Source: Streptobacillus ratti
GTDB taxonomy: Bacteria > Fusobacteriota > Fusobacteriia > Fusobacteriales > Leptotrichiaceae
Reading direction: 5' to 3'
DNA length: 36,809 nt
Assembly (NCBI RefSeq): GCF_001891165.1
Contig: NZ_LKKW01000012.1
Coordinates: 1-36,809, forward strand
In this document: piece by piece, positions 21,553 to 28,260 of the stretch
Numbering within the stretch: the stretch's first letter is position 1
Layout: each line of letters begins with the position of its first letter
Notes under the pieces: generated by a model
The model's database searches: none
What the model was told of the DNA's origin: nothing
Seen by the model: only the letters and a program-made list of their open reading frames with translations
Program-made: the position numbers and the translations under genes

Positions 21553-21558
21553 ATGTGT

Positions 21559-21885
21559 ATGAAAGAGATAGAAGAATATATAAAATACTCAATTTTATTC
21601 ATATACTATAAGGAACTATTTTCTGAAAAACAGAAAAAATATTTATCTGCATATTTAGAGGAGGATAATTCATTAACAGAAATAGCAGAAGCTTTTAATG
21701 TAAGTAGACAGGCAGTTTTTGATAATATTAAAAGAGGCTGTAAACAGTTAGATAAGTATGAGAAGTTACTTGGAGTTATGGAAAGAGAAGAGAACTTAAT
21801 AATGAATTTAAAATGGCTAAGAGATAATTTTTCAAAGGAAAATTTAGATAAAATAATAATGGAATATGAAGAAGGAGCAAATTAA
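21559..21885 (+). CDS. ylxM: YlxM-like DNA-binding protein of the SRP operon
   Basis: A 108-residue protein with a sigma-70 region 4-like helix-turn-helix: YYKELFSEKQKKYLSAYLEE, then SLTEIAEAFNVSRQAVFDN, the recognition helix, and IKRGCKQLDKYE. YlxM (UPF0122) is nearly always encoded just before ffh and is thought to modulate signal recognition particle function. An ATG at 21553 gives two extra residues, but the promoter position predicts a transcript starting at 21559, so I chose that. The stop overlaps the ffh start (TAATG), a coupling arrangement. Confidence 0.85.
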   Translation: MKEIEEYIKYSILFIYYKELFSEKQKKYLSAYLEEDNSLTEIAEAFNVSRQAVFDNIKRGCKQLDKYEKLLGVMEREENLIMNLKWLRDNFSKENLDKIIMEYEEGAN

Positions 21886-23216
21886 TGTTTAAAGGTTTGA
21901 GTGATAAATTACAAGAAACTTTTAAAAAGTTATCTGGACAAAGTAAAATCACTGAAAGTAATATCACGGAAGCTTTAAGAGAAGTAAGACTTGCCTTACT
22001 TGAAGCAGATGTTAATTACATAGTAGTTAAGAATTTTGTTAAGAGAATAAAAGAAAAAGCACAAGGACAAGAAGTTATTAAAGGTGTAAATCCAAGACAA
22101 CAGTTTATAAAAATAATAAATGATGAATTAATAGAAGTTTTAGGAGGGCAAAATACAGCTTTAAATAAGGCAACTTCAAAACCTACTATTATTATGCTAG
22201 TTGGATTGCAAGGAGCAGGTAAAACTACTTTTGCAGGAAAATTAGCTAAGCTTTTAAAGAAAGAAAAAAATAAAGCATTTTTAATAGGAGCAGATGTATA
22301 TAGACCAGCTGCTAAGAAACAATTAATGGTACTTGCAAATCAAATAGGAGTTCCATTCTATAGTATAGAAGATAGTAATAATGTATTAGAAATAGTTAAT
22401 AATGGATTACTAGAGGCTAAAAAAGAAGATGCTGATTATGTATTAATAGATACTGCTGGAAGATTGCATGTTGATGAGGTTTTAATGCAGGAACTTCAAG
22501 ATGTTAAATCAAGCATTAATCCAACAGAAATTCTGTTAGTTGTAGATGGTATGACAGGGCAAGATGCAGTAAATGTGGCTAAAACATTTAATGATGCTTT
22601 AGATATCACAGGAGTAGTAGTTACAAAATTAGATGGTGATACTCGTGGAGGGGCAGCTCTATCTATTAAAGAAATTTCAGGTAAACCTATTAAATATATT
22701 TCTGAGGGGGAAAAGCTTGATGATATATCAGTATTTCACCCTGAAAGACTTGCAAGTAGAATACTTGGAATGGGAGATGTAGTATCTTTAGTTGAAAAAG
22801 CTAAAGATGCTATAGATGAAAAAGAAGCACGTGAAATGGAAGCAAAATTTAGAAAAAATCAATTTGATTTTGAAGATTTTTTAAAACAATTTAAAATGAT
22901 TAAAAGAATGGGTTCTCTTGGAGGTATATTAAAAATGCTACCAGGTATGGGAGCTTTAGGAGATATAGATCTTACTGGTGCTGAAAAAGAGATGAAAAAA
23001 GTAGAAGCTATAATATATTCTATGACAGTAGAGGAAAGAAGAAATCCTAATCTTTTAAAAGTAAGTAGTAGAAAAACAAGAATAGCAAAAGGTTCAGGTA
23101 CAGATGTAACACAAATCAATAAATTACTTAAACAATTTGAACAGATGAAACAAATGATGAAAATGTTTAATTCTGGAAATATACCTGGGTTTGGACAAAT
23201 AGGAAAAAAAAGATAA
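21885..23216 (+). CDS. ffh: Signal recognition particle protein Ffh (SRP54)
   Basis: A 443-residue GTPase that binds 4.5S/6S RNA and signal sequences and delivers nascent membrane proteins to FtsY. Domains are N (about 1-90), G (about 91-295, with GLQGAGKT at 107-114, DTAGRLH, TKLDGDTRGGAAL), and the Met-rich M domain (about 320-443, with KMLPGMGALG and the basic RNA-binding helix ending GSGTDVTQINKLLKQF). Length is normal. It is coupled to ylxM. In many bacteria rpsP follows; here two acyl-ligase fusion genes come first, 25 nt downstream. Confidence 0.97.
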   Translation: MFKGLSDKLQETFKKLSGQSKITESNITEALREVRLALLEADVNYIVVKNFVKRIKEKAQGQEVIKGVNPRQQFIKIINDELIEVLGGQNTALNKATSKPTIIMLVGLQGAGKTTFAGKLAKLLKKEKNKAFLIGADVYRPAAKKQLMVLANQIGVPFYSIEDSNNVLEIVNNGLLEAKKEDADYVLIDTAGRLHVDEVLMQELQDVKSSINPTEILLVVDGMTGQDAVNVAKTFNDALDITGVVVTKLDGDTRGGAALSIKEISGKPIKYISEGEKLDDISVFHPERLASRILGMGDVVSLVEKAKDAIDEKEAREMEAKFRKNQFDFEDFLKQFKMIKRMGSLGGILKMLPGMGALGDIDLTGAEKEMKKVEAIIYSMTVEERRNPNLLKVSSRKTRIAKGSGTDVTQINKLLKQFEQMKQMMKMFNSGNIPGFGQIGKKR

Positions 23217-23241: not shown

Positions 23242-25722
23242 ATGTTCTTACAAAAATCAAATAGGTTAGCTTTGGTTGACTCTAAAGGAAATAAGGTAAG
23301 TCATAGTGAATTGGTAGATAAGGTTAAGTATTTTTCAAAAAATGTAATTAAAGAAACTAAAGATATTCAAAAATTTAATGTAATAATGATGGAAAACAGA
23401 AAAGAATGGTTATATACTTTTTATGCAATTTGGGATAAAAAGAATATTCCATTAGTAATTGATTCAGAGTCTAGTATAGAAGAAATAGTGTACTTTTTAA
23501 AAGATTCTAATGCAACAAGTATTTATGTTTCAAATAAGACATATGAAAAGGCTAAAGAAACAATAGATACATTAGGAAGAGAAATAACTATAGTAAATAT
23601 AGATGATGTAGAAATAGATGAAAATAAATTAAAAGAGATAGCAAAAGATAATAACTTATTATCTCATCCAGAGGGAGAAGAATTAGCAATAATGCTATAT
23701 ACTTCAGGGACTACAGGGAATCCAAAAGGTGTAATGCTTACTTTTAATAATATAGAAGCACAGATTGAATCAATAAAATCATTAATGATTATTGAAGAAA
23801 ATGAGCAAGTATTGGCAGGACTGCCTTTTCATCACATACTTCCATTAATGACAACAAATCTTTTATTTATGCACCATAGTACTCAATTTTCTATAGTATT
23901 TATAGATAATCTTTCAAGTCAGGATATATTGAAAGCTTTAAGTGATAATGATGTAACAATATTATCTATGGTTCCAAGGGTGTATAAGTTATTTTATAGT
24001 TCTATAAAAAGTAAAATTGATTCTAAGGTTACTGCTAAAAACTTATTTAAACTTGCACAAACAGCTAAAAATATTAAATTTTCAAGAGCATTGTTTAATA
24101 AGATACATAAAATGTTTGGTGGAAAACTTACAAGAGTTATATCAGGTGGAGCTAAAACTGATAAGGAAATAGCTGATTTTTTTGACATTATAGGTATTGA
24201 ATACTTTGAAGGTTATGGTTTAAGTGAAACTTCACCAGTAGTTGCATGTTCAACTACAAAACATGGTAAGAAAAATGGAACTGTAGGAAGAAAAGTTGAT
24301 AATATAGAAGTTAAATTAGTTGATGGAGAATTATGGGTTAAAGGTCCTATAGTAATGAAAGGGTATTACAATAAACCTGAAGAAACAGCTAAGGTAATAA
24401 CTGAAGATGGTTGGTTTAAAACTGGAGATTTAGCAGAAATAGATGAAGAAGGCTTTATTACTATTATAGGAAGAAAAAACTCTATGATAGTATTATCTAA
24501 TGGTAAAAATATAGATCCTGAGAAATTGGAAAATAGGTTATTAGGATATTCAAATGAAATAATAAAAGAAATAGGAATTTTTGCTAAAAATGATAAATTA
24601 GCAGCTTTAATAGTAATAGATGATAATAAAATAAAAGAAAAAAGAATAACAAATATTAAACCATATATAGAAGATGCAATATCATTTTATAATGCAGCTT
24701 CACATGGATATGAAAAAATATTGGAATATAAGATGACTGAAATGGAATTACCTAAAACTAGAATAGGTAAATTAAAAAGATTTATGTTAAAAGATATATA
24801 TTTAGGTCATATGAAAGATGAAGAAAAAGAAAAAGTAGAAGAACCAGATACTTTAGAATATAAGGTTTTAAAAGAATATATTTTTAATATGAAAAATGAA
24901 TATGCTGAACCTAATGTAAACCTAGAAATAGAATTTGGACTAGATTCTTTAGACCAGGTTGAATTACTTTCTTTTATAGAAAGAAGTTTTGGAGTTAAGC
25001 TTACAGCAGAAGAATTTAAAGAAAATATTAATTTAATTAAGTTATCAGAATTAATAAAAAATAAATCTGAAAAATTTATTGAAACAAAAGATCAATGGAA
25101 AGAAATAATAAAAAATGCACCAATAAGAGAATTAGAAAATGGAAGTGGAATTAGATTTTTAAGACCTCTTGGTTGGCTTATTTTTAAAATTTATTTTAGA
25201 TTAAGTATTAAAGGTAAGGAAAATATAAAAGATGAACCACAAATATTTATTGCTAATCATGCAAGCTTTTTAGATGCATTGGCACTTAATTTATTACTTC
25301 CAAAAAAAGTATCTAAGGATACTTATTCACTTGCTATAGATTGGTACTTTAAAAGCAGTTTTATGAAAAAACTTGCTAAGGAAACTAATTTAGTTTTATT
25401 AGATATTGATGGAAATATTAAAGATACAATAGAACAAATTGCATCAGTATTAAAACAAGGGAAAAATGTATTTATATTCCCAGAAGGAACAAGAACAAAA
25501 GATGGTAATTTATCACCATTTAAAAAGACTTTTGCAATAATATCAAAAGAAATGAATGTAAAAATTACTTGTTTAAAAATTGATGGAACTTTTGAAGCTT
25601 ATTCAAGATATGATAAATATCCTAAACCTAAAAAAATAACAGTTAGTTATTTAGGAGAAATTAATCCACAACATTTAAGTTATGATGAAATAGTTGATAA
25701 AGCAAGAGATATGTATAATTAG
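23242..25722 (+). CDS. Fusion protein: AMP-forming acyl ligase, acyl carrier domain and PlsC-type acyltransferase (first copy)
   Basis: An 826-residue protein with three enzymatic parts in order. Residues about 1-535 are an AMP-forming acyl ligase: P-loop YTSGTTGNPKG (153-163), GYGLSETSP (324-332), TGD (394-396) and GRK (410-412). Residues about 545-625 are an acyl carrier domain with the phosphopantetheine Ser569 in GLDSL. Residues about 640-826 are an LPLAT/PlsC acyltransferase with HASFLD (673-678, the HX4D motif) and FPEGTR (746-751). I infer that it activates a fatty acid, loads its own carrier and transfers the chain to a lysophospholipid or glycerol phosphate. E. coli Aas has the acyltransferase first and no carrier. 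It follows ffh by 25 nt with an AGGAGG site, and its paralogue comes next. Confidence 0.85.
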   Translation: MFLQKSNRLALVDSKGNKVSHSELVDKVKYFSKNVIKETKDIQKFNVIMMENRKEWLYTFYAIWDKKNIPLVIDSESSIEEIVYFLKDSNATSIYVSNKTYEKAKETIDTLGREITIVNIDDVEIDENKLKEIAKDNNLLSHPEGEELAIMLYTSGTTGNPKGVMLTFNNIEAQIESIKSLMIIEENEQVLAGLPFHHILPLMTTNLLFMHHSTQFSIVFIDNLSSQDILKALSDNDVTILSMVPRVYKLFYSSIKSKIDSKVTAKNLFKLAQTAKNIKFSRALFNKIHKMFGGKLTRVISGGAKTDKEIADFFDIIGIEYFEGYGLSETSPVVACSTTKHGKKNGTVGRKVDNIEVKLVDGELWVKGPIVMKGYYNKPEETAKVITEDGWFKTGDLAEIDEEGFITIIGRKNSMIVLSNGKNIDPEKLENRLLGYSNEIIKEIGIFAKNDKLAALIVIDDNKIKEKRITNIKPYIEDAISFYNAASHGYEKILEYKMTEMELPKTRIGKLKRFMLKDIYLGHMKDEEKEKVEEPDTLEYKVLKEYIFNMKNEYAEPNVNLEIEFGLDSLDQVELLSFIERSFGVKLTAEEFKENINLIKLSELIKNKSEKFIETKDQWKEIIKNAPIRELENGSGIRFLRPLGWLIFKIYFRLSIKGKENIKDEPQIFIANHASFLDALALNLLLPKKVSKDTYSLAIDWYFKSSFMKKLAKETNLVLLDIDGNIKDTIEQIASVLKQGKNVFIFPEGTRTKDGNLSPFKKTFAIISKEMNVKITCLKIDGTFEAYSRYDKYPKPKKITVSYLGEINPQHLSYDEIVDKARDMYN

Positions 25723-25770
25723 TTATGTTGATTTGGTGGGGAAAAATTAAGAGGAAGAAAGGAAGAAATT

Positions 25771-28260
25771 ATGTTTTTAAATAAATCTGATAGATTGGCG
25801 ATAGTAGATTTTGACGGAACAAGAATAAGTCATACAAATCTTGTAAATACGGTAAAATATTATTCCAAGTATGTTATATCTGAAGGAATACCTAAAACTT
25901 TTAGTATTATTATGATGGAAAATAGAAAAGAATGGTTTTACGCATTTTATTCATTATGGGATATGGATTTAATTCCTGTTGCAGTAGATGCTCTGTCAAA
26001 TGAAAAAGAATTAGAATATTTTTTAAATGATTCAGGTGCTACTTGCATTTATGTTTCTAATAATACTTATGAAGTTGCAAAGAAAGCAATTGAAGCCACA
26101 AATAGAGATATTAAAATATTTAATGTTGATGAAATTGAAATAGATAAAACTCTATTTTCTGAAATAGAAAAAGATGAGAGAATACTTTCACATCCAGAAA
26201 TGGAAGATATAGCTGTAATGCTATATACCTCAGGAACTACAGGGCAACCTAAAGGAGTTATGTTGACTTATGGTAATATACATCATCAAATATTATCTAT
26301 AAAATCATTAGAAATAACATGGGATGATGAACAGATTTTAGCAGTATTACCTTTTCATCATATACTGCCATTGATGTCGGCTAATATTTACTATATGTAT
26401 CACGAAAATCAACATTCTGTGGTATTAGTAGAAAAATTATCTAGTCAAGAAATATTAAAGGCATTATCAGAAAATGATGTAACGATGTTAGTATTGGTTC
26501 CAAGAGTTTATAAGTTATTCTATAAATCTATTAAAAATACTATAGATTCTAAATGGATAACTAGACTTATATATGCACTTGCTAAGAAAATAAATAATAA
26601 GAATTTTTCTAAGAAAATATTTAAAAAAGTGCATGAAAAATTTGGTGGTAAACTAAGAAGTATGGTAGTTGGAGGAGCTAAGTCTGATATTGAAATGATA
26701 GAATTTTTCAATACTTTAGGTTTTGATTACTGCGAAGGTTATGGACTTACTGAAACTTCTCCAATAATATCAGGAAATACAATTAATCATGGATATAAGG
26801 TAGGGACTGTTGGAAAACCAGTAGATAATATAGAGGTTAAAGTTGTAGATCAAGAACTATGGGTTAAAGGACCTATAGTAATGAAAGGGTATTATAACAA
26901 ACCTGAAAAAACTGCTGAGGTATTAACTGAAGATGGTTGGTTTAAAACAGGAGATGTAGTAGAAGTTGATGATGATGGATATATAAGTATAATTGGTCGT
27001 AAAAATGCTATGATAGTATTATCTAATGGGAAAAATGTAGACCCTGAATCATTAGAAATTAAATTTATGTCATCAGCTAATCAAATAATCAAAGAAATTG
27101 GAATAATAGGGCATAATGATAAATTAGCTGCATTAATAGTAGTAGATAGAAATGAGGCTAAGAAATTAAATATTTTAAATATAAACGCATATGTTAAAGA
27201 TACAGTAGAGTTCTATAACGGAGCTGTACATAATTATGAAAAAGTATTGGAATACAAGATTACTGAAGAAGAATTACCTAAGACCAGAATAGGTAAATTA
27301 AGAAGATTTATGTTAAAAGATTTGTATTCTGGAAAAGCTAAAGTTGAGAAAAATGAAACTGTAAATGAGCCAAATACTGAAGAATACAAGATACTTAAAG
27401 AGTTTATCTTTAAAATGAAAGGCGTTTATCCTGAGGCAAATAAAAATTTAGAAGTTGAATTTGGTCTTGATTCACTTGATCAGGTAGAATTATTAACTTT
27501 TATTGAAAATAGTTTTGGACTAAAAATATCAGAGGAAGATTTCAAAGATAATCTAACATTAATTGGATTATCTAAATATATAGAAGAGAAATCAGCTGGA
27601 TTTACTGAAACAACAGATCAATGGAAAGAAGTTATACAAAATGCACCTAATAAAGAACTTAAAGATGGTTGGTTAATGTCATTGATTAAACCAATAATGT
27701 TCTTATTATTTAAGTTATACTTTAGAATAGATATTAAGGGTTCAGAAAATATAAAGAATGAACAACAAATATTTATAGCAAACCATGAAAGTTTTATTGA
27801 TGGATTAGCATTTAGTTTATTAATACCTAATGTATCATCAGAAAAAACATATACTTTAGCTATAAATTGGTATTTCAAAAATGCTTTTATGAAGTTTTTT
27901 GCTAAACATGGTAATATATTATTACTTGATATTAATAAAAACATTAAATCTACTATAGAAAATGTATCATCAGCCCTTAAACAAGGAAAAAATATTTTCA
28001 TATTCCCAGAGGGAACAAGAACAAAAGATGGGAATTTAGGAGAATTTAAGAAGATATTTGCTATATTATCTAAAGAATTAAATATACCTGTAACTTGTTT
28101 AAAGATTGACGGAGCTTTTGAAGCATATTCAAGATATGATAAGTTCCCTAAACCTAAGAAATTATCTGTTAAATATTTAGGTCAAATTAAACCTGAAAAC
28201 ATGTCTTATTCTGAAATAGTTGATACGGCACGTAATATGTATTTAAATGATAAAAAATAA
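25771..28260 (+). CDS. Fusion protein: AMP-forming acyl ligase, acyl carrier domain and PlsC-type acyltransferase (second copy)
   Basis: An 829-residue paralogue of the preceding protein, alignable throughout with only small length differences, so a tandem duplication. All three active sites are intact: YTSGTTGQPKG starting at 152, Ser568 in GLDSL of the carrier domain, HESFID (672-677) and FPEGTR (745-750). Differences cluster in the ligase pocket region (about 230-330, for example LAVLPFHHILPLMSANIYYM against the first copy) and around the acyl acceptor region, suggesting different chain or acceptor preference. The ribosome site is a doubled AGGAAG. It ends about 85 nt before rpsP. Confidence 0.85.
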   Translation: MFLNKSDRLAIVDFDGTRISHTNLVNTVKYYSKYVISEGIPKTFSIIMMENRKEWFYAFYSLWDMDLIPVAVDALSNEKELEYFLNDSGATCIYVSNNTYEVAKKAIEATNRDIKIFNVDEIEIDKTLFSEIEKDERILSHPEMEDIAVMLYTSGTTGQPKGVMLTYGNIHHQILSIKSLEITWDDEQILAVLPFHHILPLMSANIYYMYHENQHSVVLVEKLSSQEILKALSENDVTMLVLVPRVYKLFYKSIKNTIDSKWITRLIYALAKKINNKNFSKKIFKKVHEKFGGKLRSMVVGGAKSDIEMIEFFNTLGFDYCEGYGLTETSPIISGNTINHGYKVGTVGKPVDNIEVKVVDQELWVKGPIVMKGYYNKPEKTAEVLTEDGWFKTGDVVEVDDDGYISIIGRKNAMIVLSNGKNVDPESLEIKFMSSANQIIKEIGIIGHNDKLAALIVVDRNEAKKLNILNINAYVKDTVEFYNGAVHNYEKVLEYKITEEELPKTRIGKLRRFMLKDLYSGKAKVEKNETVNEPNTEEYKILKEFIFKMKGVYPEANKNLEVEFGLDSLDQVELLTFIENSFGLKISEEDFKDNLTLIGLSKYIEEKSAGFTETTDQWKEVIQNAPNKELKDGWLMSLIKPIMFLLFKLYFRIDIKGSENIKNEQQIFIANHESFIDGLAFSLLIPNVSSEKTYTLAINWYFKNAFMKFFAKHGNILLLDINKNIKSTIENVSSALKQGKNIFIFPEGTRTKDGNLGEFKKIFAILSKELNIPVTCLKIDGAFEAYSRYDKFPKPKKLSVKYLGQIKPENMSYSEIVDTARNMYLNDKK

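Follow-up and report, generated by a model that had tools for sequence, protein, structure and literature searches.

Two intact open reading frames lie in tandem in the window, the whole stretch of 36,809 nucleotides of Streptobacillus ratti DNA that was analysed (Table 1). Pfam places the domains of both encoded proteins in the order AMP-binding, AMP-binding_C_3, PP-binding, Acyltransferase, with every match over its curated gathering cut-off. For copy 1 and copy 2, respectively, the E-values were 2.5e-56 and 1.5e-61 (AMP-binding), 2.8e-06 and 5.2e-06 (PP-binding, PF00550), and 6.6e-21 and 3.5e-19 (Acyltransferase, PF01553). In each copy the carrier Ser, Ser569 in copy 1 and the residue aligned with it in copy 2, sits in a GLDSL motif. 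An initial annotation, made from the sequence, had described two ligase-carrier-acyltransferase fusions with GLDSL, HX4D and FPEGTR motifs; Pfam and the alignments bear out this order, the coordinates and the motifs, and the carrier domain that it proposed is recognized by PP-binding over the cut-off in both copies. The gene order ylxM-ffh-copy 1-copy 2 is kept in all four Streptobacillus species. In the other genera examined, ylxM-ffh does not adjoin the fusion gene, and no conserved operon of the fusion with lipid genes was found; the ylxM-ffh neighbour is genus-specific.

Table 1. Coordinates of the tandem fusion genes, their domains and the upstream genes in the window
Feature	Position	Strand	Evidence
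Fusion copy 1, 826 aa: acyl ligase-carrier-acyltransferase; faster-evolving, derived copy	23242..25722	+	ORF, Pfam, tree
Copy 1 AMP-binding domain, aa 5-376; A3 motif YTSGTTGNPKG	23254..24369	+	Pfam, motif conservation
Copy 1 AMP-binding_C_3, aa 414-513; invariant A10 Lys510	24481..24780	+	Pfam, alignment
Copy 1 acyl carrier domain, aa 557-605; Ser569 codon 24946-24948	24910..25056	+	Pfam; Ser in 57/57
Copy 1 PlsC-type acyltransferase, aa 654-775; H673..D678, FPEGTR 746-751	25201..25566	+	Pfam, motifs, 5KYM match
Fusion copy 2, 829 aa: architecture as copy 1; family residue at 12/13 informative positions	25771..28260	+	ORF, Pfam, alignment
Copy 2 AMP-binding domain, aa 5-375	25783..26895	+	Pfam
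Copy 2 AMP-binding_C_3, aa 414-519	27010..27327	+	Pfam
Copy 2 acyl carrier domain, aa 556-604; Ser568 codon near 27472-27474	27436..27582	+	Pfam, alignment
Copy 2 PlsC-type acyltransferase, aa 652-775	27724..28095	+	Pfam
ylxM and ffh, directly upstream of copy 1 (25 bp gap)	21553..23216	+	gene order

The carrier Ser, as well as the His and Asp of HX4D, is present in all 57 fusion homologues from 39 genomes, and a 41-member alignment shows the ligase A10 Lys510, the carrier D568-S569-L570 and FPEG/R751 (copy 1 numbering) to be invariant. As judged from these alignments, motif conservation across the fusion family far exceeds chance. The AlphaFold model of the fusion had a mean pLDDT of 83.4, with confidently predicted domains, and a pTM of 0.57, by which the placement of the domains is uncertain. 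Structure comparison of this predicted model matched the ligase part to ANL enzymes and the ligase plus carrier stretch to the adenylation-carrier fusions of EntE and EntB (3rg2, 4iz6). In a sequence search, Thermotoga maritima PlsC (5KYM) was the only PDB match of the acyltransferase domain (E 2.6e-08).

We compared the fusions with known systems that share some of their parts. E. coli Aas, a 2-acyl-glycerophosphoethanolamine acyltransferase and acyl-ACP synthetase that recycles free fatty acid into glycerophospholipid, likewise carries a PlsC-type acyltransferase and an AMP-forming acyl ligase on one chain, but its acyltransferase is N-terminal (15-137), its ligase is C-terminal (AMP-binding, 233-568) and it has no carrier domain, an opposite order that the initial annotation had correctly pointed out. 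E. coli Aas needs a separate ACP. The fusion failed both NCBIfam equivalogs, scoring 137.6 bits against the cut-off of 886 bits for NF005959 and 220 against 1221 bits for NF006386. The latter, to which copy 1 scores best among NCBIfam models even though far under its cut-off, corresponds to the PRK08633-type LplT-acyltransferase-ligase proteins (such as the 1125-aa L169). These also combine acyltransferase and AMP-binding domains on one chain, but they begin with an MFS transporter, place the acyltransferase ahead of the ligase and lack a carrier domain; in some Fusobacteriaceae they occur alongside carrier fusions. PlsC, whether from T. maritima or a stand-alone protein of Fusobacteriales, shares HX4D, FPEG and the Arg at position 159 of the T. 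maritima enzyme (TmPlsC) with the fusions, whereas stand-alone PlsC relies on acyl-ACP or acyl-CoA made elsewhere and has the motif II Arg and Lys105, both missing from the Leptotrichiaceae fusions. The EntE-EntB proteins resemble the fusions, by predicted fold match, in joining a ligase to a carrier, but they are engineered aryl-acid NRPS constructs without an acyltransferase. The fusion is real and conserved, and is well accounted for as a version of the Aas idea that contains a carrier.

The fusion is carried by 39 of 40 Fusobacteriales relatives. The exception, G024, has FASII, PlsX and PlsC, and is without the fusion, FakB or any AMP-binding enzyme; the fusion and the Fak kinase thus vanish together. 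Among the matches listed, MAGs of Bacteroidaceae, Bacteroidales and Opitutales also encode full-length proteins of the fusion architecture (33-36% identity), so that the architecture is neither unique to S. ratti nor confined to its phylum. Two variant proteins were seen. One, of 422 aa (L050:2991-4256, genome G030), consists of HTH_28, carrier and PlsC-type domains without a ligase, its carrier Ser and HX4D being intact. The other, a 1464-aa MAG protein (L080:1179-5570), has a fatty acyl reductase-like domain (NAD_binding_4) together with ligase, carrier and acyltransferase, and is possibly a one-chain ester-forming enzyme.

The two S. ratti copies are 62% identical, and the fusion tree places their duplication at the base of Streptobacillus (SH-aLRT 96). 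A duplication in common with Fusobacteriaceae was rejected, as the tree shows separate events: Fusobacteriaceae have an ancient duplication, Streptobacillus a recent one and G015 one of its own. Besides G015, G009 has a further duplication (L036, L037), and one of its two fusions is very fast-evolving (784 aa, branch 1.17). A single copy is found in G006, G007 and G016. Copy 1 has 12 fixed derived changes against 1 in copy 2, a stem of 0.37 against 0.18 in the fusion tree, and NHASF in place of NHESF; by these sequence measures it is clearly the derived copy. The fixed differences between the copies amount to 0.11-0.17 per site and are spread over all domains, giving no clear signal of divergence confined to any one of them.

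We then considered the gene content of the genomes. Nine of them, comprising Streptobacillus and sister genera (G000-G003, G006, G007, G009, G015 and G016), are referred to here as FASII-less; they form a single clade in the fusion tree (SH-aLRT 100). Gene absences were scored by family searches in assemblies that are partly fragmented. On this basis, FabF/B, FabH and LpxC are absent from all nine, as is stand-alone PlsC, PF01553 domains being found solely within fusions, and PlsX is absent from eight, the exception being G006. PlsY, CdsA, AcpS and free ACP are kept in all nine. A FakB domain is present in eight, within an ORF of about 830 aa; G009 has no FakB/DegV detectable by family search, which would leave its PlsY without a known donor. 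The S. ratti genome (1.43 Mb) conforms to this pattern, which is also shown by the complete genome of the same genus, G001. Examination of the S. ratti fab genes and phosphopantetheinyl transferase, as proposed with the initial annotation, showed FabF/B and FabH to be absent and AcpS to be present. Weak KAS-like matches in FASII-less genomes were rejected as residual FASII, since the protein is a thiolase encoded, like HMG-CoA synthase and HMG-CoA reductase, in a mevalonate operon. S. ratti has no AMP-binding proteins other than the two fusions, which are hence its only acyl ligases and also its only PF01553 acyltransferases. FakA and FakB are joined there in one chain of 827 aa with Dak2, FakA-like_M, FakA-like_C and DegV domains (L031:1517-4000, G000:C47), which matches both FakA and FakB structures.

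Several further observations concern these gene sets. In nearly all Fusobacteriales relatives the DegV matches belong to ORFs of about 830 aa, and a single-chain fatty acid kinase therefore seems to be phylum-wide. The free ACP gene (L032:5731-5961) adjoins rnc, and is kept in genomes without FASII, PlsX, PlsC or LpxC. LpxC is missing from precisely the FASII-less genomes, plus G004, which is 88% complete; this suggests that lipid A was lost along with fatty acid synthesis in the FASII-less genomes. In the FASII-positive Leptotrichiaceae G005, G011-G014, G019 and G021-G023, PlsX was not found by PF02504, yet FASII and PlsY are present; their acyl-phosphate perhaps comes from a thioesterase and FakAB, or from a divergent PlsX. 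A nearly identical integrase-like fragment lies at two contig ends of S. ratti (L031:17-424 and L033:17-424), and the contigs may break at insertion sequences.

Published physiology is consistent with dependence on external fatty acids. Streptobacillus requires serum, blood or ascites for growth (PMC3035246, PMC11609424). The fatty acids reported from its cells form a host-like set of C16:0, C18:0, C18:1, C18:2 and C20:4 (PMC11609424, PMC3035246); both the profile and the serum need fit fatty-acid dependence. 3-Hydroxy fatty acids have been reported from Sebaldella termitidis (PMC3035275), which retains FabF, FabH and LpxC. The suggestion in the initial annotation that the fusions build membranes from host fatty acids thus gains support, both from these profiles and from a gene content that includes no FASII condensing enzymes, PlsX, stand-alone PlsC or other acyl ligase.

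Given the presence of PlsY, CdsA, AcpS and FakA-FakB, lysophosphatidate (LPA) can be made and phosphatidic acid (PA) is needed. Since the sole remaining acyl ligase and PlsC-type domain lie in the fusion, we infer that the fusion acylates lysophosphatidate; it is apparently the sole candidate left for the second acylation in S. ratti. FakA-FakB enzymes convert free fatty acid to acyl-phosphate, from which PlsY transfers the acyl group to glycerol-3-phosphate, as established for these families. The single-chain FakA-FakB and PlsY would therefore supply the first chain from host fatty acid, giving lysophosphatidate, which would require a second acylation before CdsA could act. For the second chain, AcpS would attach the phosphopantetheine arm to Ser569 or Ser568, the ANL domain would convert free fatty acid and ATP to acyl-AMP, the acyl group would move to the arm of the same protein, and the PlsC-type domain would pass it to a lysolipid, most likely 1-acyl-glycerol-3-phosphate, to yield phosphatidic acid. 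We consider it likely that the fusion is self-contained in this way, activating a fatty acid, loading its own carrier and acylating a lysolipid, with FakAB and PlsY providing the first chain and the fusion the second. The scheme of two routes is not uniform across the clade, because G009 is without detectable FakB.

Although gene content favours 1-acyl-glycerol-3-phosphate as the most likely acceptor, the evidence from individual residues is mixed. Arg159 of TmPlsC has been reported to coordinate the LPA phosphate (PMC8319176). At the corresponding position, 57/57 fusions have Arg and E. coli Aas has Ile. The residue preceding this position is T, S, G or E in 15/15 FASII-less fusions and in 10/10 stand-alone PlsC examined, and Ala in 14/14 fusions of FASII-positive Leptotrichiaceae, which has the appearance of a move towards PlsC within the PlsC-less clade, among sequences that are related and are not independent tests. 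Conversely, every stand-alone PlsC in the comparison has the motif II Arg (R128 of TmPlsC), whereas no fusion keeps it, the FASII-less ones having Ile in its place. Lys105 is absent from all Leptotrichiaceae fusions, as it is from Aas, and the FASII-less fusions have I or L there. These two losses, the first of which is also shared with E. coli Aas, would suit a fusion that is mainly an Aas-like lysophospholipid acyltransferase, repairing or salvaging lyso-PE, lyso-PG or host lysolipids, while an unrecognised enzyme makes PA. The same can be said of the FASII-positive relatives, in which a true stand-alone PlsC coexists with the fusion; LPA acylation was, accordingly, probably not the sole ancestral job of the fusion. 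We nevertheless regard such a role as unlikely for the FASII-less clade, where no other PF01553 protein exists even though PlsY and CdsA are kept, and where the fusions, unlike Aas, keep Arg159.

It could also be asked whether the two copies divide the work, either between sn-1 and sn-2 or between saturated and unsaturated chains. In favour of this, four species retain both copies and the motifs of each are intact, copy 1 is plainly the derived one, and other duplications have occurred within the FASII-less clade. However, one copy suffices in G006, G007 and G016, and the fixed differences single out no domain, so that a division of this kind seems rather doubtful to us. In particular, the sn-1/sn-2 split that the initial annotation had entertained did not find support and is unlikely, because PlsY and the Fak fusion cover the first acylation and because single-copy genomes exist in two sister genera (G006; G007 and G016); a difference between the copies in fatty acid preference is possible. 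Finally, all FASII-less genomes keep a free ACP together with AcpS, so that loading in trans is possible, and CoA is often the acceptor for ANL ligases of this type, but a ligase that hands its acyl group to CoA or free ACP, with the built-in carrier as an auxiliary, appears improbable, as the carrier Ser is invariant in 57/57, even in the copy without a ligase, and S. ratti has neither another ACP-using acyltransferase (PlsX, PlsC) nor the lipid A marker LpxC.

With the fusion taken as the enzyme of the second acylation, a broader evolutionary reading can be proposed, towards which we lean only slightly: the lineage would have swapped FASII, PlsX and PlsC for two salvage enzymes, each a single polypeptide, namely FakA-FakB, which feeds PlsY, and the ligase-carrier-acyltransferase fusion. 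Each acyl chain of PA would then be activated by a dedicated route of its own, without any need for a pool of free acyl-ACP. An ancestrally Aas-like fusion would thereby have been recruited as an essential LPA acyltransferase.

Our literature search, which covered few subscription journals, found no publication on the ligase-carrier-acyltransferase architecture or on FakA-FakB fusions. The new point is that the fusion is apparently the sole second acyltransferase in a fatty-acid-auxotrophic lineage. Its built-in carrier offers a simple one-protein system in which to test carrier-channelled acyl transfer onto lipids. The loss of LpxC in the FASII-less species ties lost fatty acid synthesis to a probable loss of lipid A in an outer-membrane lineage. 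If the proposed role is correct, these bacteria would have a phospholipid pathway that operates without FASII, PlsX or PlsC, in which the step taken by the fusion is probably essential and has no backup enzyme, and there would be a gene-level reason why the fastidious Streptobacillus needs serum and carries host-type polyunsaturated fatty acids.
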